Source: an uncultured bacterium (GTDB taxonomy: Bacteria > Cyanobacteriota > Vampirovibrionia > Gastranaerophilales > Gastranaerophilaceae). From it: DNA of 64,000 bases. How positions within the stretch are numbered: the stretch's first letter is position 1; each line of letters opens with the position of its first letter. A program made the position numbers and the translations under genes. Positions 4,038 to 63,513 of this stretch are shown here, in pieces. The notes beneath the pieces were generated by a model. It did no database searches and had not been told where the DNA came from. It saw only the letters and a list, made by a program, of their open reading frames with translations. The DNA lies in the NCBI GenBank assembly GCA_902761735.1, contig CACWLL010000001.1, positions 1 through 64,000 of the forward strand, given 5' to 3'.

Positions 4038-4940
4038 TTATTTTACTTTTGTATCAGGGAAATAATTCCATTTTATTTTTTCATTTTTCCTAAACCATGT
4101 AAGTTGCCTTTTGGCATATCTTCTTGTATTTTGTTTTAATTTGTCTAACGCTTCGTCTAGTGTTAAAACTTTATCAAGATACATAATAATTTCTTGATAT
4201 CCGATAGTATTAATAAGATTGGGAATTCTTCCGTGTTTTTCAAGTAATAGTTTTGTTTCCTCAATTATGCCGTTTTGAAGCATTAAATCCACTCTGTTAT
4301 TTATCCGATTGTAAAGTTCATCTCTTGGGTAATTTCTACCTATCCAATTTATATCAAATTCGCTTTCGCTTGATACGCTACGAGATTCGCTAAGTGTTTT
4401 ATTCCCGAACGTAACAATTTCTATGGCTCTGATAATTTTTTTGCTATCATTAGAATCTATTGTTGATGCCCCTTCAGAATCTATTTCTTTTAGTCTGTTA
4501 TATAATTCATCTTTGGGTAAGTTTTTCAATTCATTTCTAAATTCGTAATTAGGTTCAACTTTAGGCGGTAAATAATTTTCAAGCAATAATCTGAAATATA
4601 ATCCTGTACCGCCGACAATAATCGGCGTCTTACCTCTTTTTAATATGTCATATATTATTTTTTTTGCATCCTTAGCGTACAAACCCGCAGAATAATTATC
4701 CTCGGGTTCAACAATGTCCATCATATGATGAGGGATACTTTCTCTTTCTTTCAAGGTCGGTTTTGCACATGCAATATCAAATCCTTTATATACAAGTCTT
4801 GAATCGGCAGAAATAATTTCACCGTCAATTTCTTTTGCAAGTTCGATTGAATATGCAGTTTTCCCGCTTGCCGTGGCTCCGACGACAGCAACTACTTTAG
4901 GTTTTTGAGATTTGTTTTGCAGGTTTGCTGTTAAACTCAT
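4038..4940 (-). CDS. miaA: tRNA dimethylallyltransferase MiaA
   Basis: MiaA transfers a dimethylallyl group from DMAPP to N6 of A37 in tRNAs that read UNN codons. The N-terminal P-loop GATASGKT, the segment ISADSRLVYKGFDIACAKP and the GGTGLYFR motif are all present, and the length (300 aa) is normal. The substrate loop reads DSRLVY rather than the usual DSMQVY, a mild variation. The ATG at 4940 is chosen because it sits exactly six bases after a TATACT -10 hexamer; another ATG two codons upstream lies inside that spacer. The 5' end overlaps the 3' end of the membrane-protein gene by about 44 bases, so the promoter would lie inside the neighbouring coding sequence. Confidence 0.92.
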   Translation of the reverse strand: MSLTANLQNKSQKPKVVAVVGATASGKTAYSIELAKEIDGEIISADSRLVYKGFDIACAKPTLKERESIPHHMMDIVEPEDNYSAGLYAKDAKKIIYDILKRGKTPIIVGGTGLYFRLLLENYLPPKVEPNYEFRNELKNLPKDELYNRLKEIDSEGASTIDSNDSKKIIRAIEIVTFGNKTLSESRSVSSESEFDINWIGRNYPRDELYNRINNRVDLMLQNGIIEETKLLLEKHGRIPNLINTIGYQEIIMYLDKVLTLDEALDKLKQNTRRYAKRQLTWFRKNEKIKWNYFPDTKVK

Positions 4941-5772
4941 TGTCATAGTATAAAAATATTAACACAACAATATATACAAGAAAATAAAAATAAAAAATCA
5001 TATACAACATATAAAGAATCGGATTTAAGAATGATATTGGGGATATAAAGTAAATTATCATATTTAAAATTGTAATATATATAAATAGCATAATTGATTT
5101 AGAAAATGGCTTAAATAATTTTTTTATAGACGTAAACAATGCAAAAAGAGGGTTTTTATATGTATAAATTATTTCCGGCATCCAAAGCATAACAAGGTAT
5201 GAAAATATAGACGGAATTATTGTGACTACCAGTAAAAGTTTTATCCCTGAAAAAAGTATTTTATTAAAGATTTCAAGTATTATATCAGGTTGAACTGTAT
5301 TCAGCGCAGCTTTCATCTCTTGAGGGGTTGCAACATTTATTCCATAACTTAAAAATACACTATCGATATGCGCTTTAATTGGCAGTGCAAAAAACCCGAT
5401 TAAAAACACCATAAAAAGTGCTATTGCTAAAAACAAAAGACAAGTTTCAACATAATACAAGAAAAATCTGCCGACTCCTCTTGGAATTGCTTTTAAAAGA
5501 TTTAATGTTTCGCTGTTTTTGTCATTATCAATAATAAAGTGTTTTTTTGATATTTTTACGCACTTTTTAATCATATAGAACCAACCGGAACAGAATGCAC
5601 TGCACATAAATAATACAGTGATAAATGAGAGTATCATTTTTGGCGTATTATCAACCACATTCATTGAATAATCAACATACATTGTAATAAGCCAAGCAAA
5701 AACTGCAAGCGGAATCGTTAAAATTATCCCTTCATTTGTTGTTTTGAAAGCATCTTTATATAATTTAAACAT
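4897..5772 (-). CDS. Polytopic membrane protein of unknown function
   Basis: The protein has 291 residues and about five or six hydrophobic helices (near residues 20-35, 48-68, 105-135, 175-205, 230-280). I recognise no transport or catalytic motif. The ATG at 5772 follows the purine-rich GGTGAGGG by a few bases; a GTG four codons upstream is part of that site and is not preferred. It lies 14 bases after the activase-like gene 5787-6932 and its end overlaps miaA, so it is probably cotranscribed with the former. The general layout resembles DUF-type membrane proteins with repeated helical pairs, but I cannot name a family. Confidence 0.75.
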   Translation of the reverse strand: MFKLYKDAFKTTNEGIILTIPLAVFAWLITMYVDYSMNVVDNTPKMILSFITVLFMCSAFCSGWFYMIKKCVKISKKHFIIDNDKNSETLNLLKAIPRGVGRFFLYYVETCLLFLAIALFMVFLIGFFALPIKAHIDSVFLSYGINVATPQEMKAALNTVQPDIILEIFNKILFSGIKLLLVVTIIPSIFSYLVMLWMPEIIYTYKNPLFALFTSIKKLFKPFSKSIMLFIYITILNMIIYFISPISFLNPILYMLYMIFYFYFLVYIVVLIFLYYDNEFNSKPAKQISKT

Positions 5773-5786
5773 ATTATCCCTCACCT

Positions 5787-6932
5787 TTACGCTTTAGCGG
5801 AATTTTTACCTGTACGATTTTCAAGTTCAAGTTTGCGCTTTCTTCTTCGCATTAAATCCACAAAAGCTTCTAATCTGGTTAAATAGCCGGCTTTACCTGT
5901 TTGTTCATCCATAATGAGCGGCAATATCGGCACATCACAATTTTCTCTCATTGCTGGAAATATATTTTGTGACATAATTTCCGGCATACAAGTAAACGGA
6001 CTTATGTGTATTATTCCATCAATTCCTCTTTCGTCAGCATATGCAACATCAGAAACACATTCTAACGCATCTCCGCCAATATCTCTCATAAGATACGGTT
6101 TGGCAAGACGGTTTGCTCTCTGCAGGTGTGTTTCGCCTTTTCGGAATAATTTAGGGATTATTGCATCTTTTAAGAAACCGCTGACAGTAAGACTTTTTCT
6201 TGTTTCAACTCCCATTTTGCCAAGTTCTTTCAATATATCTTGATTTGAAAATTTATCGCACACAAGATATATTTCTCCTGTTATATCAACATGCAAAACA
6301 TCCCTGTTTTCATCAAGTTCAACATTATTCATTTCAGCAAAAGCCAGTTTTTTTGCCTTATTCATTTGACGGGTATTCATTGCTTCATCAACAATTTTAA
6401 CAGCTTTGTTAAAAGCTTTTTCAGAGCTCCCGAAAACTTTTTCTCTTGCTCTGCAATATGAAAGTTTTGCTTGTAAATCATCTAACAGGAACACTTTCCT
6501 TATTGCCAATATAATTGCTCTTAAAAATAAAACTAAATCGGTTTTACCTGATATTCTTTTTAAGAAATCAAGCATTCCTTGAATCCCATCATAGAGGGTG
6601 AGTTCAATATAATTTGCCTTATAGCCCATATCTTCTAATGCGTGATTAATGCCTGCCCCGTATTCTCCCAATCTGCAGCAACCCGGAGATGTAATCATCG
6701 CAACGTAATCCGCCCCACCCTCAATAGCCTCGATAAAATTACCCATTATTAATTTATACGGTAAGCAAATTGCCTCAGGGGAATTTTTTGTTCCCAGCGA
6801 TAGTGTACGTTTGCTTGTATAAGGCGGAATATACGGTTCAACCCCTATTTTCCTTAATGCTGCTGACCACGCTATATATATTAAACCCATATGGGGAAAT
6901 GCTACTTTTAATTTTTCTTTTTTCTCTGTCAT
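5787..6932 (-). CDS. 2-hydroxyacyl-CoA dehydratase / activase-related protein
   Basis: The 381-residue protein resembles the DUF2229 and HgdB/BcrC-like part of the large acyl-CoA dehydratase activases. Visible signs are the Cys in AICLPYKLIMGNF (about residue 55), the SPGCCRLGEYG motif (about 82-92), a conserved FTCMPE segment and the C-terminal DEQTGKAGYLTRLEAFVDLM. These Cys would ligate a [4Fe-4S] cluster in relatives. The actin-fold ATPase half normally present in the long activases (DxGSTTxK motif) is absent here. Stand-alone copies of this module are of unknown function. It is followed at 14 bases by the membrane-protein gene and preceded by gcvPB. Confidence 0.75.
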   Translation of the reverse strand: MTEKKEKLKVAFPHMGLIYIAWSAALRKIGVEPYIPPYTSKRTLSLGTKNSPEAICLPYKLIMGNFIEAIEGGADYVAMITSPGCCRLGEYGAGINHALEDMGYKANYIELTLYDGIQGMLDFLKRISGKTDLVLFLRAIILAIRKVFLLDDLQAKLSYCRAREKVFGSSEKAFNKAVKIVDEAMNTRQMNKAKKLAFAEMNNVELDENRDVLHVDITGEIYLVCDKFSNQDILKELGKMGVETRKSLTVSGFLKDAIIPKLFRKGETHLQRANRLAKPYLMRDIGGDALECVSDVAYADERGIDGIIHISPFTCMPEIMSQNIFPAMRENCDVPILPLIMDEQTGKAGYLTRLEAFVDLMRRRKRKLELENRTGKNSAKA

Positions 6933-6955
6933 AATCGCTTACCTTGCTATAATAT

Positions 6956-8380
6956 TTATTCTTTAAATGCTAAATCCGGATGTCTTGCAGCTAAAGTCTC
7001 ATCAACCTTTTTTACCGGAGTGGTATGAGGTGCTGAAAGAACTTTTTGAGGATTTTCTTTTGCTTCTCGTGCAATATCAATCATTGTTTGTATAAATTCA
7101 TCTAATTTTGCCTTAGTTTCTGATTCTGTCGGCTCAATCATTATTGCCTCGTGGACTATTAGTGGGAAATAAACCGTAGGCGGGTGAGTATTGCCATCCA
7201 TAAGTCTTTTGGCAATATTTAATGTTGAAACGCCATTTTCTTCTTTTTGCTTTTCACCAGTTAGCACAAATTCATGCATACAAGGTTCATCATAAGGTAA
7301 ATGATAATATTTTTTAAGTTTTTCTTTTATATAATTTGCATTTAATACTGCATTTTCGGTTGCGTTTTTAAGATTATCCCCCATCATAAGAATATATGCA
7401 TAAGCTCTAATCATTACGCCGAAATTACCGTAAAAACCTTTCACAGAACCAATAGAATTTTTTAAGTTATAATTCCTGAAATATTTTTCTCCGTCATAAC
7501 CTACAATCGGTGTCGGTAAAAATTCTTTTAATTTTTCAACAACACCAACCGGCCCTGCGCCCGGACCTCCGCCGCCATGAGGGGTTGCAAATGTCTTATG
7601 CAAATTTATATGAACGACATCAAACCCCATAAGTTTTGGATTAGTATAACCTAAAATGGCATTTGAATTAGCTCCGTCATAATATAGCAAAGAGCCGTTA
7701 TCATGCATCAATTTAGAAATTTCAAGAACCTTTTCCTCAAATAAACCCAAAGTATTTGGATTAGTCATCATTATTGCGGCTACATCCTTGTCAATAAGCC
7801 GTTTTAAATCGTCTATATCCACCTGACCTTTTTCATTTGACTTTACCGGAACAATTTCAAATCCGCACATATGAGCACTAGCCGGATTAGTACCATGCGC
7901 TGAATCGGGAATTAAAACCTTTTTCCTATTATCGTTGATACTCTCAAAATATTTCTTGATAATCATCATACCGGTAAGCTCTCCATGAGCACCCGCTGCC
8001 GGTTGTAATGTTACTGCAGACATTCCGGTAATCTTTTTTAAAGCTTCCTGCAAATTATACATTAATTTTAGCGCACCTTGAGAATGTTCGTCATCCGAAC
8101 ATGGATGTAAATCCGTAAATCCGTTCAGTGCGGCTAAAAGTTCGTTTACCTTAGGGTTATACTTCATAGTGCAAGAACCTAACGGATAAAAGCCTTTTTC
8201 AATACAAAAATTCATATCTGAAAGTTCTTTGTAATGCCTCATTACTTCAAGTTCACCAAGCTGAGGTAGTCCGATTTTATCTTTTCTTAGATAGGCTGAG
8301 CTTATGAAATTAATATCAGTACTTTCATCCGTGAGAAATATACCTCCGGAATTATCAGATTTTTCAAATATAGTTTTCAT
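6956..8380 (-). CDS. gcvPB: Glycine dehydrogenase (decarboxylating) subunit 2
   Basis: This is the PLP-binding half of the P protein of the glycine cleavage system, which decarboxylates glycine and loads the aminomethyl group on lipoyl-GcvH. The 474-residue length fits the two-subunit type. NLHKTFATPHGGGGPGAGP (about residues 252-270) holds the PLP lysine, and GFYPLGSCTMKYNPK is the typical N-terminal signature. The start ATG overlaps the stop of the upstream sigma-factor gene (TAATG), so translation is probably coupled. The partner gcvPA, usually immediately upstream, is absent from the window, as are gcvT and gcvH. Confidence 0.95.
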   Translation of the reverse strand: MKTIFEKSDNSGGIFLTDESTDINFISSAYLRKDKIGLPQLGELEVMRHYKELSDMNFCIEKGFYPLGSCTMKYNPKVNELLAALNGFTDLHPCSDDEHSQGALKLMYNLQEALKKITGMSAVTLQPAAGAHGELTGMMIIKKYFESINDNRKKVLIPDSAHGTNPASAHMCGFEIVPVKSNEKGQVDIDDLKRLIDKDVAAIMMTNPNTLGLFEEKVLEISKLMHDNGSLLYYDGANSNAILGYTNPKLMGFDVVHINLHKTFATPHGGGGPGAGPVGVVEKLKEFLPTPIVGYDGEKYFRNYNLKNSIGSVKGFYGNFGVMIRAYAYILMMGDNLKNATENAVLNANYIKEKLKKYYHLPYDEPCMHEFVLTGEKQKEENGVSTLNIAKRLMDGNTHPPTVYFPLIVHEAIMIEPTESETKAKLDEFIQTMIDIAREAKENPQKVLSAPHTTPVKKVDETLAARHPDLAFKE

Positions 8381-56954: not shown

Positions 56955-57755
56955 ATGCAAAGTAAAACGTATGTTTCTGAATCTTTAAAAAACGGGCGAT
57001 TAATGAGATGGACTTTTATGCCGTTAAAAGTTTATATTGCGCCTATGAAGTTTTACGCAAAACAAGGACAAGATTACAAATATAATGCTCTTGTAAAAAA
57101 AGCATTAAACGAATGGCAAAGCGCCACAAAAGGCAAGGTTTCATTTACCGTAGTAAATACGTTACTGGAATCAAACGTAAACATTGATTGGAAAAGAGTT
57201 GAACGAGTCGCCTTGGGGCACTGTTACTTTAGTTTTGATGCAAACAACAGACTGTATGGGGCAGAAGTTGCAATAGGGCTGACTGATGGACTCATACATA
57301 GCCAATACGGGAGTGAAGCAGAAGTTTATCACACTATCTTACACGAAATCGGACACGCCATTGGTTTAGGGCACAGTCCGTATAAAACGGATATAATGTA
57401 TACACCGCATCAAAAAGGTATTCATAAAGTTTCAAGTGGAGATGTTGCAACAATAAACTGGTTATACAAGCTGCCTCAAGGTGCGACCACTGCAGAAATA
57501 GCATCTCGTTATGGTGTTGGCGGCAGCAATCTGGATGAAATAATTGCAAAAATTATAGAAAAAAATGCTCCGAGCGAATTTGAGAAAGTAAAAGGCTCTA
57601 TAAAAGTTAAGCGCCGCGATTTAATGGAAGAAACCGAAAACTTGGCTCTTTTACAACGATATCACATATCTCTGCAGAACGTAGGGATTTCGGGTCAAGC
57701 TAAAGAATTTTTTAAAAATAAGGCTACAAACAATAAAAATAATAAAAATGATTAA
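56955..57755 (+). CDS. Matrixin-like zinc metalloprotease
   Basis: The 266-residue protein has the metzincin motif HTILHEIGHAIGLGHSPYKTD (about 128-148; HExxHxxGxxH) with the Met-turn residue in IMYTP just after. The preceding NEWQSATKGKVSF is a typical matrixin strand-helix. There is no signal peptide or propeptide with a Cys switch: the catalytic domain begins almost at once. The C-terminal 80 residues are charged and end in a Lys/Asn tail. It heads a plus-strand run with the formyltransferase and MlaA fusion, 15 bases before the former. Confidence 0.88.
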   Translation: MQSKTYVSESLKNGRLMRWTFMPLKVYIAPMKFYAKQGQDYKYNALVKKALNEWQSATKGKVSFTVVNTLLESNVNIDWKRVERVALGHCYFSFDANNRLYGAEVAIGLTDGLIHSQYGSEAEVYHTILHEIGHAIGLGHSPYKTDIMYTPHQKGIHKVSSGDVATINWLYKLPQGATTAEIASRYGVGGSNLDEIIAKIIEKNAPSEFEKVKGSIKVKRRDLMEETENLALLQRYHISLQNVGISGQAKEFFKNKATNNKNNKND

Positions 57756-57770: not shown

Positions 57771-58679
57771 ATGGATAAAAAATTAAAAGTTGTTATACTG
57801 GGTAAAGGAGCAATGCTTGCAAATCTTATAAGAGGTGCAATTTTATCCGATGTCAATATAGTCGGAGTTCTCAGATATGAAAGAAACCATTTATCCCCGT
57901 TAATGCTGAAAATACATGATTTTTTTAAACCATCCCCCGAACTCACATTAATCAAAAGACACCGAATTAAAGATTTAAAGTTTAATTCGGCAAACTCTGA
58001 AAATTTCAGGAAATTCCTTATAAAGAATAATGTAGATATAGTCCTTGTTGGGACATGGAGTGAAAAAATTTCAAAACAGACAATTGATATCCCACAAATA
58101 GGCACAATTAATGTGCACCCTTCTTTATTACCAAAATATCGTGGAGTCAATCCCTATCTTGAAACAATACGTAACGGAGAAAAATACTCCGGAATAACAT
58201 TTCATATTATGACAGAAAAACTTGATGCCGGAGGAATCCTCGCTCAAGAAAAAATTGAAATTCTTGACAGTTACACTGGATTGGAATTAAGAAACAAAAC
58301 AGCATTCAGAGCAAGATTTTTATGTGAAGGGCTTTTAGAACAGCTAAAGCAGGGTTGTGTAATACCAATTCCTCAAGATGAAAATGAAGCAACATATTTT
58401 AAAGATATAGCACCGGAAGAAATGACACTTGATTTCACAAAAGAAACTTCTGACGAAATAATCCGACATGTAAGGGCTTTTCATCCGTTTCGACCGACAT
58501 ATATACAGGAATGTAACACTTTTTGGCTTGTGGATGCTTATAAAATTAAAAAATCGGAACTTACCGGGCAACCTTATGAATATCTGCATTCTGACAAAAA
58601 TTCTAAAATAATTGCGTGTGCAGATAGAATTGCCGTAGAATTTAACGGCTTAAAAAAATATAATAATCTCCCCCTCTAA
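57771..58679 (+). CDS. Methionyl-tRNA formyltransferase-like protein
   Basis: The 302-residue protein has the formyl-THF motif INVHPSLLPKYRGVNPYLE (about 106-124; Asn and His of the active site) and the catalytic Asp in KLDAGGILA (about 144). A C-terminal Fmt-like domain follows (RHVRAFHPFRPTYI). The N-terminus (VVILGKGAML) departs from Fmt's GTPxFA pattern, and the tRNA-contact loop seems different. It may be the true Fmt of this organism or a formyltransferase for sugar or amino groups of the envelope. GAGGGG precedes the ATG. Confidence 0.75.
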   Translation: MDKKLKVVILGKGAMLANLIRGAILSDVNIVGVLRYERNHLSPLMLKIHDFFKPSPELTLIKRHRIKDLKFNSANSENFRKFLIKNNVDIVLVGTWSEKISKQTIDIPQIGTINVHPSLLPKYRGVNPYLETIRNGEKYSGITFHIMTEKLDAGGILAQEKIEILDSYTGLELRNKTAFRARFLCEGLLEQLKQGCVIPIPQDENEATYFKDIAPEEMTLDFTKETSDEIIRHVRAFHPFRPTYIQECNTFWLVDAYKIKKSELTGQPYEYLHSDKNSKIIACADRIAVEFNGLKKYNNLPL

Positions 58680-58758: not shown

Positions 58759-60837
58759 ATGAATAATTTTAAAAATTTACTATTTATTATTGCAGTTATT
58801 ATCAACTTGCTCACACCTACAAAAGCAGAGGAACCGGTAAAAAGCATACCGACTAAGCATCCGGATTATGCCTGCATGTTTTTAGGAGAAGATAAATGTG
58901 AAAACTTTAACAGAAAGGTTTTCAAGTTTAATGCAGGATTAAATAAGTACATAATTAAGCCCGTTGATATATTATGGGCATCAATTATGCCGAAATACGG
59001 TATGGATAGGATAAGAGGCATATATAAAAATATAGAATTTCCAAAACGAGTTGTAAGTTCACTTATTCAAAAAGATTATAAAGGAAGCGGTAGAGAAGCT
59101 CTTAGATTCCTTACTAACTCAACATTAGGTCTTGGAGGAATGTTTGATCCGGCAAAATCAATATTTCACCTTGAGCCTGTAGATGAAAACATGGAACAAG
59201 CCTTAACACGCTGCAAATGTAATCAGGGGAGATACATAGTCATGCCATTTATAAATGGAGCAACCCCAAGAGGCTTATGCGGGAAAGCTCTTGATACAGC
59301 GTTAAACCCAACCAGCTACATCGGAACACCTATACTTGCTCTCATAAAACTCGGTTTCACTATCAACGAAACGACATATATGCAACCACTGGCAGATATA
59401 GTGCAATCGAATTATGCCGACCCGTATGATATAGCAAAAAAGTTGTACGGCATCGAAAACCATATAAAAGCTTACAATTTAGACAGAGAATCAGTAATAA
59501 AAGAACATGAAGAAAAATTAAACAGCAATATTGACTTGGTAAATAACGAATCAACCTCGGATGAAATCACATTGCGAGCCGAAGATAAAACCTTTGATCC
59601 GAATAAAATTTCATATACAGAACTGCTTAAAGACGGTATTACAAAAGAAAGCTACATTCTTAAACATTCAAAACCTAAAGCTGACCTTATACTTGAAAAT
59701 TATAATGCACAATCACCAAGCATTGATGCAATGAGAACAGCACTTTTTAATTTACCGGGGATAAATGATTCAATTTGGACAGATTTATCAATTTGGAACA
59801 GAAGCTTTGCGCATAGAATCAAAACTGCTTCGGTTAAAACCTATGAAGACTGTGAAAACTACAAATATCGATATATAATGCAAAAGGATAAAAATTCTCC
59901 TTTAGCAATTCTCTTTCCCTCCATTGGGGAAGGAGTTAAATCGCATCATTCAGTTGTTTTTGCTAAACTGTTTTACGATATCGGCTATTCAGTCATCATT
60001 GAAGGCAGCAGTTTTAATTGGGAATTTGTAAAAAGTATGCCCGTTGGCTACGCCCCGGGATTACCGGAAAAAGACGCCAAAGAACTGGCAATTATCACAC
60101 ATAAAATAATAAATCAATTACAAGAAAAATATAATTGTGAATTTAAAAACAAAACAGTTCTGGGAACATCCTTCGGCGGATTAACAACACTATTCTTAGC
60201 AAGTAATGAATATAAAGAGAATACTCTTGGGATAAATAAATTCATATCGATAAACCCTCCAATTGAACTCTTATACGCAATGAAGGTTGTCGATAAACAA
60301 AATGAAGAATGGCAAAAAGACCCAAATAATTTAAAGGAAAGAGTTGCACTCACTTCAGCCAAAATCTTAAATCTTTGGAATAAAAAAGACGAAAAGAATT
60401 TTAAAATAGACACACTACCCTTCAACGATTATGAAGCTAAACTTATAACCGGATTTATAATGCATCAAAAGTTATCTGATTTAATATTTGCAATCGAAAA
60501 AATTCCAAATCATAAAAAGACGAATTTTTACGATTTAGTTAATAATATGAACTATGGAGATTACATGAAAAAATATATTTTAGGGAGTAGTATCCTTGCC
60601 TACGACGACGTAAACTATGATACAAGCCTGTATTCAATTTCTAATTATCTTGAAAATAACGATAATTATAGAATTTATCACACAATTGACGATTATCTTG
60701 TAAATTCTCAGCAATTAAATATACTAAAAAAATACACAGGAAATAAAAGTATATTCCTAAATAACGGTTCACACTTAGGGTATATGTACAGAGAAGAGTT
60801 TATTAATTCATTGAAAAATGATATCGCCTTAAAATAA
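58759..60837 (+). CDS. MlaA (VacJ)-alpha/beta-hydrolase fusion protein
   Basis: The 692-residue protein has a signal peptide (1-24, cleaving after TKAEE-like sequence; no lipobox Cys at the site). The MlaA domain (about 35-230) is shown by FNRKVFKFNAGLNKYIIKPV, KNIEFPKRVVSSLI, RFLTNSTLGLGGMFDPAKS and GRYIVMPFINGATPRG. MlaA pulls mislocalised phospholipid from the outer leaflet of the outer membrane. Residues about 320-692 look like an alpha/beta hydrolase: LGTSFGGLTTLFLAS (about 473-487) supplies the Ser elbow, IDDYLVNSQQ an acid and NNGSHLGYM the His. MlaA alone is usually about 250 residues. Confidence 0.8.
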   Translation: MNNFKNLLFIIAVIINLLTPTKAEEPVKSIPTKHPDYACMFLGEDKCENFNRKVFKFNAGLNKYIIKPVDILWASIMPKYGMDRIRGIYKNIEFPKRVVSSLIQKDYKGSGREALRFLTNSTLGLGGMFDPAKSIFHLEPVDENMEQALTRCKCNQGRYIVMPFINGATPRGLCGKALDTALNPTSYIGTPILALIKLGFTINETTYMQPLADIVQSNYADPYDIAKKLYGIENHIKAYNLDRESVIKEHEEKLNSNIDLVNNESTSDEITLRAEDKTFDPNKISYTELLKDGITKESYILKHSKPKADLILENYNAQSPSIDAMRTALFNLPGINDSIWTDLSIWNRSFAHRIKTASVKTYEDCENYKYRYIMQKDKNSPLAILFPSIGEGVKSHHSVVFAKLFYDIGYSVIIEGSSFNWEFVKSMPVGYAPGLPEKDAKELAIITHKIINQLQEKYNCEFKNKTVLGTSFGGLTTLFLASNEYKENTLGINKFISINPPIELLYAMKVVDKQNEEWQKDPNNLKERVALTSAKILNLWNKKDEKNFKIDTLPFNDYEAKLITGFIMHQKLSDLIFAIEKIPNHKKTNFYDLVNNMNYGDYMKKYILGSSILAYDDVNYDTSLYSISNYLENNDNYRIYHTIDDYLVNSQQLNILKKYTGNKSIFLNNGSHLGYMYREEFINSLKNDIALK

Positions 60838-62805: not shown

Positions 62806-63513
62806 TTACGAATTAGTTAATTCTTCCAATTTAGGTTTTCTGCCGCAAGATTTATCCTCGTCACAATATCCATACCTGTCACACTTAGCAACCAAATATG
62901 GTTTTAACCAAGGTTCTTCTGCGACAAGAGCGTCACACATCCCTTTTACCAGCATACGAATTTCAAATTGCGCTCTTGAACACAACCTTAAATTCGCCAA
63001 ATGAATAAGTTCTCTCAAATTTAAGCTTGCCACCATTGAAGTCGCTGTCGCATTAGGCAAAACTGCTCTTGCATCTTCTGCCGGTATTCCCGCATCAACA
63101 AATTCCTGATAAATATTTGAAATTTCACCCATAAAATCGATGAATTTTTGTTTTAACTCAGGATTTTTATCAATTGTCGGAGGAATTAAATAATCAAATT
63201 GTCCTTTTTCTTTAACATATCTTTGAGATTTTTGCGAAAACGACATATGACGATGGCGAACAAGCTGATGAGTGCAAGCCCTTGAAACATTTGCGATTGC
63301 AAAACTTATTTGAATATGTTCAATAGTTGAATAATGCCCTGAAGAAATAACTCTTTCAATAAGTTTAAGCATTTTCTCTGTATCATCGGTGCTGTTATAT
63401 ATATTTATTGGATAATCCGCACTATAACAAGTTCTGCATGCCGTATAAACTGTTTTCAACATATTCTCCGGCTTTGATATTAAATTTACAATCGGTTTAT
63501 TACTCTCTTCCAT
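62806..63513 (-). CDS. thyX: Flavin-dependent thymidylate synthase ThyX
   Basis: ThyX makes dTMP with FAD and methylene-THF. The 235-residue protein has the ThyX motif RHRHMSFSQKSQRY (about 85-98) and the conserved RACTHQLVRH just before. NLRELIHLANLRLCSRAQFEIR (seen at about 160-181) is the second signature. The Cys-rich C-terminus (CDRYGYCDEDKSCGRKPK) is somewhat longer than usual. AAGAGGG and AAGGA lie before the ATG. Confidence 0.95.
   Translation of the reverse strand: MEESNKPIVNLISKPENMLKTVYTACRTCYSADYPINIYNSTDDTEKMLKLIERVISSGHYSTIEHIQISFAIANVSRACTHQLVRHRHMSFSQKSQRYVKEKGQFDYLIPPTIDKNPELKQKFIDFMGEISNIYQEFVDAGIPAEDARAVLPNATATSMVASLNLRELIHLANLRLCSRAQFEIRMLVKGMCDALVAEEPWLKPYLVAKCDRYGYCDEDKSCGRKPKLEELTNS

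Follow-up and report, generated by a model that had tools for sequence, protein, structure and literature searches.

In a 64,000-nucleotide stretch of DNA from a Gastranaerophilaceae bacterium (hereafter the window), one open reading frame joins an MlaA domain to an alpha/beta hydrolase in a single polypeptide of 692 amino acids. We consider this protein, with a probability of about 0.75, to be the single-chain counterpart of the two-protein MlaZ-MlaY system. In that system, according to two reports, MlaZ clears the outer leaflet of misplaced phospholipid, which the lipase MlaY receives from it and degrades (PMC11131202, PMC12569750); a third describes the discovery of the pair in a species that lacks PldA (PMC10925693). 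The frame starts with ATG and lies on the forward strand; its features, in window coordinates, are listed below.

58759..60837, + strand: whole fusion gene, 692 aa, with signal peptide, MlaA domain, linker and alpha/beta hydrolase (candidate MlaZ-MlaY type fusion)
58759..58827, + strand: signal-peptide-like N-terminus, residues 1-23 (...LTPTKA|EE), signal peptidase I style, without lipobox cysteine
58888..59448, + strand: MlaA domain (PF04333), residues 44-230; Pfam E = 4.8e-40; Foldseek matches 8i8r_D and 5nur_B, TM-score to target ~0.8
59485..59667, + strand: end of the MlaA helices and flexible, poorly conserved linker, residues ~243-303; pLDDT <50 at 257-278
59668..60834, + strand: residues 304-692, alpha/beta-hydrolase domain with homology to MlaY of P. 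aeruginosa (PA3238 type)
60169..60171, + strand: Ser471 of GTSFGG, the predicted nucleophile, opposite MlaY Ser187 in the alignment (MlaY numbering from PMC11977310)
60466..60480, + strand: residues 570-574, QKLSD motif conserved without exception across the fusion family
60691..60693, + strand: Asp645, predicted catalytic acid in IDDYLVN, opposite MlaY Asp388 in the alignment; the Fusobacterium homologue has Glu at this position
60772..60774, + strand: His672, predicted catalytic histidine in NGSHLGY; aligns with MlaY His415

The first-pass annotation of this gene had proposed that MlaA is fused to an alpha/beta hydrolase in one polypeptide, and the open reading frame, Pfam, AlphaFold2 and Foldseek all bear this out. 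The MlaA domain scored 137.7 bits against a Pfam cut-off of 25, and the MlaA half also matched solved MlaA structures by sequence. Residues 304-692 gave only weak Pfam matches, to alpha/beta hydrolases (Abhydrolase_1, E = 0.03), with relatives reaching 1.4e-6. The protein in the window has no lipobox cysteine, and a strict lipobox pattern occurred in only 2 of 69 homologues; Pfam found no PLA1 beta-barrel domain (PF02253, PldA/OMPLA) in the fusion protein. A phage link was considered and dismissed, the PHROG match (phrog_12179) being limited to the MlaA part, and a search for RNA elements near the gene found none.

We then modelled the protein with AlphaFold2, using an alignment of 69 full-length relatives as input. 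The whole fusion was predicted with a pLDDT of 83 and a pTM of 0.82, and the hydrolase domain alone with a pLDDT of 84.7 and a pTM of 0.87. The stretch 257-278 combined very low AlphaFold2 confidence with poor conservation, and is therefore assigned as linker. When the model was searched against the PDB with Foldseek, the best matches to the first half were MlaA chains (8i8r_D, 5nur_B, and others), and the second half matched many alpha/beta hydrolases, including the membrane phospholipase A 6i8w. TM-scores of the hydrolase half to any single hydrolase entry were moderate (0.4-0.6), probably owing to a long helical insertion; searched by sequence, neither the hydrolase profile nor MlaY returned a solved homologue. 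The motifs named in the first-pass annotation are present in the order it gave, namely GTSFGG (Ser471), IDDYLVN (Asp644/Asp645) and NGSHLGY (His672). It had also staked its proposal on a hydrolase fold for residues ~320-692 and on the placement of the Ser and His in an active site: the fold was seen with both AlphaFold2 and Foldseek, and the two residues occupy predicted catalytic positions that are invariant in the 69 homologues. In the model, Ser471 sits at a strand-helix turn (strand 465-470, helix 471-486), Asp645 falls just past strand 637-642, and His672 just past strand 664-668, so that the predicted order and topology of the three residues are those of a canonical alpha/beta hydrolase. 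Asp645, like Ser471 and His672, was identical in 69/69 aligned homologues, and the neighbouring Asp644 was variable (Asp in 50, Asn in 16 and Thr in 3). As judged from this alignment, conservation of the putative triad is far beyond what a chance spacing of motifs would give.

The closest comparison for the hydrolase half came from a collection-wide protein search of plasmid records (tblastn), which returned a P. aeruginosa 'alpha/beta fold hydrolase' (E = 3e-11) and a protein of Fusobacterium vincentii (E = 9e-11). The P. aeruginosa hydrolase is identified as MlaY because the reported active-site residues of MlaY, Ser187, Asp388 and His415 (PMC11977310), fall exactly on those residues in it, and because its gene lies beside a VacJ gene near minCDE. 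On this alignment and gene position, the plasmid gene pair corresponds to PA3238-PA3239 (MlaY, MlaZ). Profile comparison of the hydrolase half with MlaY (hhalign) gave 99.7% probability and E = 3e-25 over 328 columns, and alignment of the sequences paired MlaY Ser187, Asp388 and His415 with Ser471, Asp645 and His672 of the fusion. Asp574 of the QKLSD motif is likewise conserved in MlaY and in the Fusobacterium homologue. Identity to MlaY is only ~21%, a level that supports homology and the predicted triad and is too low to infer substrate. The MlaA half was 25% identical to MlaZ over 135 residues and 25-32% identical to the MlaA copies in proteobacterial records; as it does not resemble MlaZ more than it resembles ordinary MlaA, it may derive from MlaA rather than from MlaZ.

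In both P. aeruginosa and Fusobacterium, the hydrolase gene is followed by an MlaA-family gene. In P. aeruginosa, the VacJ/MlaA family gene begins 3 bases past the MlaY gene; in Fusobacterium, the MlaA gene comes next after the hydrolase gene with a 29-base overlap, as follows.

4794-6077 and 6049-6834 of locus L186, NZ_CP084075.1: Fusobacterium vincentii MlaY-like/MlaA pair

The gene order in both organisms is thus lipase first and MlaA second, and the domain order of the fusion is the reverse, so it did not arise by simple stop-codon loss in a Pseudomonas- or Fusobacterium-like operon. The Fusobacterium record is labelled a plasmid, yet at 2.1 Mb it is chromosome-sized. The MlaY-MlaZ pair lies on a chromosome-like segment of P. 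aeruginosa plasmids (5743-7911 in each of loci L187 and L188), and the L188 segment also carries a lipid A acyltransferase, a patatin and minCDE.

Gastranaerophilales belong to the Melainabacteria, the sister group of cyanobacteria, and most of the named records that carry this fusion come from Gastranaerophilales/Melainabacteria of animal guts. The first-pass annotation had suggested looking for the fusion in other genomes, where it proved widespread. Of 12 further species sampled from the host genus, 11 carried it. Among 286 Gastranaerophilales genomes, 137 had the hydrolase, in a frame of fused length except at contig ends; these open frames span ~600-830 aa save where contigs end. In a class sample of 240 genomes, which overlaps the order sample, the matches listed were confined to the host family. 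Across a phylum sample of 386 genomes, MlaA was detected in 92, all within two families of Gastranaerophilales, once per genome and always in a long fused frame apart from one contig-edge fragment. Since the hydrolase was present in all 92 of these genomes, MlaA never occurs apart from the hydrolase in the sampled phylum.

The tree built from 67 members followed the genus labels (23 changes, against a minimum of 21 and a shuffled mean of 50), which indicates old vertical inheritance with repeated losses; recent horizontal spread was accordingly rejected. Roughly one in two Gastranaerophilaceae genomes has no fusion, even among members of a single genus, yet retains LpxC, so the fusion is dispensable. 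A tie between loss of the fusion and loss of LPS was rejected, as LpxC was found in 114/116 genomes regardless of whether the fusion was present. We also clustered the neighbours of 80 loci, with flanks of up to 8 kb. Even the commonest neighbour groups were present at no more than 19 of 81 loci, so a conserved operon partner was rejected. By eye, the neighbour representatives included TonB-type C-termini, parts of RND pumps and cell-surface proteins, and none of those inspected was an mla gene. The fusion gene therefore mostly stands alone. In the window itself, a matrixin-type (M10) metalloprotease-like protein with the zinc motif HEIGHAIGLGH and no obvious signal peptide is encoded at 56955-57755 (+) and is followed immediately by a formyltransferase-like gene (57771-58679), an arrangement common to close relatives only; a putative ThyX-type (flavin-dependent) thymidylate synthase was recognized by eye at 62806-63513 (-).

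The lipid-transport genes of the host family were surveyed in 116 Gastranaerophilaceae genomes. As to the co-occurrence of mla genes, which the first-pass annotation had raised, it holds for the inner-membrane components and fails for the carrier: MlaD-type MCE proteins were found in 116/116 genomes and MlaE in 28/28 sampled relatives, and MlaC in 0/116, as sought with one Pfam model that a diverged carrier would escape. PldA was likewise found in 0/116 family genomes. The MCE proteins of the family include long forms of ~455 aa alongside forms of ~220 aa. A lipid A pathway and inner-membrane MCE machinery, with no MlaC or PldA found, favour destruction of lipid at the membrane over its return. 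Destruction rather than MlaC-mediated return fits these counts best, an argument from the absence of known protein families.

On the reading that we prefer, the MlaA/MlaZ half would occupy the inner leaflet of the outer membrane, from where, by homology, it would pull misplaced glycerophospholipid out of the outer leaflet through its pore. The C-terminal half would lie in the periplasm, held by the flexible linker, and would hydrolyse the extracted lipid with its predicted Ser471-Asp645-His672 triad, the tether substituting for the interaction of two separate proteins. As the only MlaA in a lineage for which neither MlaC nor PldA was found, the fusion would make lipid destruction the outer-membrane end of asymmetry maintenance. 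The first-pass proposal of a straight transfer of extracted phospholipid to an esterase agrees in this respect with the published MlaZ/MlaY model (PMC11131202, PMC12569750); for the present protein, we infer the outer-membrane location, phospholipid substrate, catalysis and direct hand-over. A published genetic result also speaks for this reading: upon addition of sphingosine, cardiolipin was not degraded in mlaY, mlaZ and mlaA mutants (PMC11977310). Counting against it are the low identity to MlaY, an MlaA half that resembles MlaZ no more than ordinary MlaA, a domain order opposite to that of the operons, the dispensability of the gene, the moderate TM-scores to single hydrolases, and the use of one Pfam model in the search for MlaC. 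A broader claim, that extraction and destruction in one tethered protein form a self-sufficient system keeping asymmetry by degradation alone in a major diderm lineage without MlaC or PldA, is more tentative, and we rate it somewhat below even odds.

The alternative that deserves most weight, although we consider it unlikely, is that intact phospholipid is not the substrate of the hydrolase, which would instead act on a different molecule, such as a lysophospholipid, an acyl-lipoprotein, a lipid A ester or a dietary or host lipid, and that the MlaA half is only an outer-membrane anchor or the supplier of that other lipid. Pfam and Foldseek reach only the general alpha/beta-hydrolase superfamily, the low identity to MlaY leaves room for another substrate, and the substrate evidence for MlaY is itself mainly genetic in the reports cited here (PMC11977310). 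However, the strict fusion to MlaA throughout the lineage, and the position of the same hydrolase family beside an MlaA gene in two further phyla, both point to glycerophospholipid delivered by MlaA.

It is far less probable that the hydrolase half is a degenerate, non-catalytic lipid-binding domain relaying lipid from MlaA in place of MlaC. Such a domain would fill the carrier role left vacant where MlaD and MlaE are present and MlaC was found in none of the 116 genomes, yet a pure binder would have no need of the Ser, Asp and His that are invariant in 69 divergent members, AlphaFold2 places the Gly-x-Ser-x-Gly elbow in canonical topology, and a tethered domain could hardly cross the periplasm. 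An artefact, be it a frameshift, a misassembly or a pair of overlapping genes taken for one, has a negligible probability; nothing was found in its favour, and it is refuted by the intact, uninterrupted architecture in >130 separately assembled genomes.

The MlaY-MlaZ system of P. aeruginosa (PA3238-PA3239) was reportedly first described by Guest et al. 2023 in PNAS (10.1073/pnas.2302546120), a paper outside the coverage of the literature that we searched; within that coverage, no MlaA-hydrolase fusion was described. The earlier impression that the architecture is uncharacterized thus stands for the fused form and not for the principle, because extraction followed by a lipase is already known from MlaY-MlaZ. 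New are the one-chain form, the lineage that carries it, and the finding that MlaA takes no other form there, as seen in the phylum sample. Direct hand-over from pore to lipase in MlaY-MlaZ is so far a proposal. That nature has joined these two families in one chain in a distant phylum, and that their genes are adjacent in two other phyla, is independent evidence for their working as a unit. If the one-polypeptide reading is true, the protein would show, as an experiment of nature, that lipid goes directly from MlaA-type pores to a lipase. It also offers a single protein for testing the hand-over and solving a structure, and suggests how fusion-carrying Melainabacteria, in which MlaC and PldA were not found, might keep an asymmetric outer membrane.

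Among known systems, the first-pass annotation had turned to MlaA and PldA of E. coli; the closest comparison is instead MlaY-MlaZ, in which an MlaA-family protein likewise has as its partner a lipase from this family of alpha/beta hydrolases. The three catalytic residues are identical by alignment, and the P. aeruginosa MlaZ homologue, like the fusion, lacks a lipobox cysteine. The differences are that MlaY-MlaZ consists of two proteins with the lipase gene first, whereas the fusion is one chain with the MlaA half first, and that P. aeruginosa also has the canonical MlaA-MlaC-MlaBDEF system, whereas in the fusion hosts MlaC was not found and the fusion is the only MlaA. The Fusobacterium vincentii pair resembles the fusion in setting a homologous hydrolase (22% identity) and MlaA side by side; unlike the fusion, it consists of separate overlapping genes, its MlaA carries a lipobox-like ISC, and the aligned catalytic acid of its hydrolase is a Glu beside a conserved Asp. 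Canonical MlaA is a lipoprotein that delivers lipid to MlaC, by which it is returned to the inner membrane, and the lipobox cysteine is a trait of canonical MlaA and not of every family member. The fusion shares the fold and Pfam family of canonical MlaA from E. coli and relatives (PDB 5nuo, 5nuq, 8i8r) and departs from it in having no lipobox, no MlaC found in its hosts, and a fused hydrolase. PldA (OMPLA) shares with the fusion the presumed goal of destroying misplaced outer-leaflet phospholipid, but it is a beta-barrel of unrelated fold.
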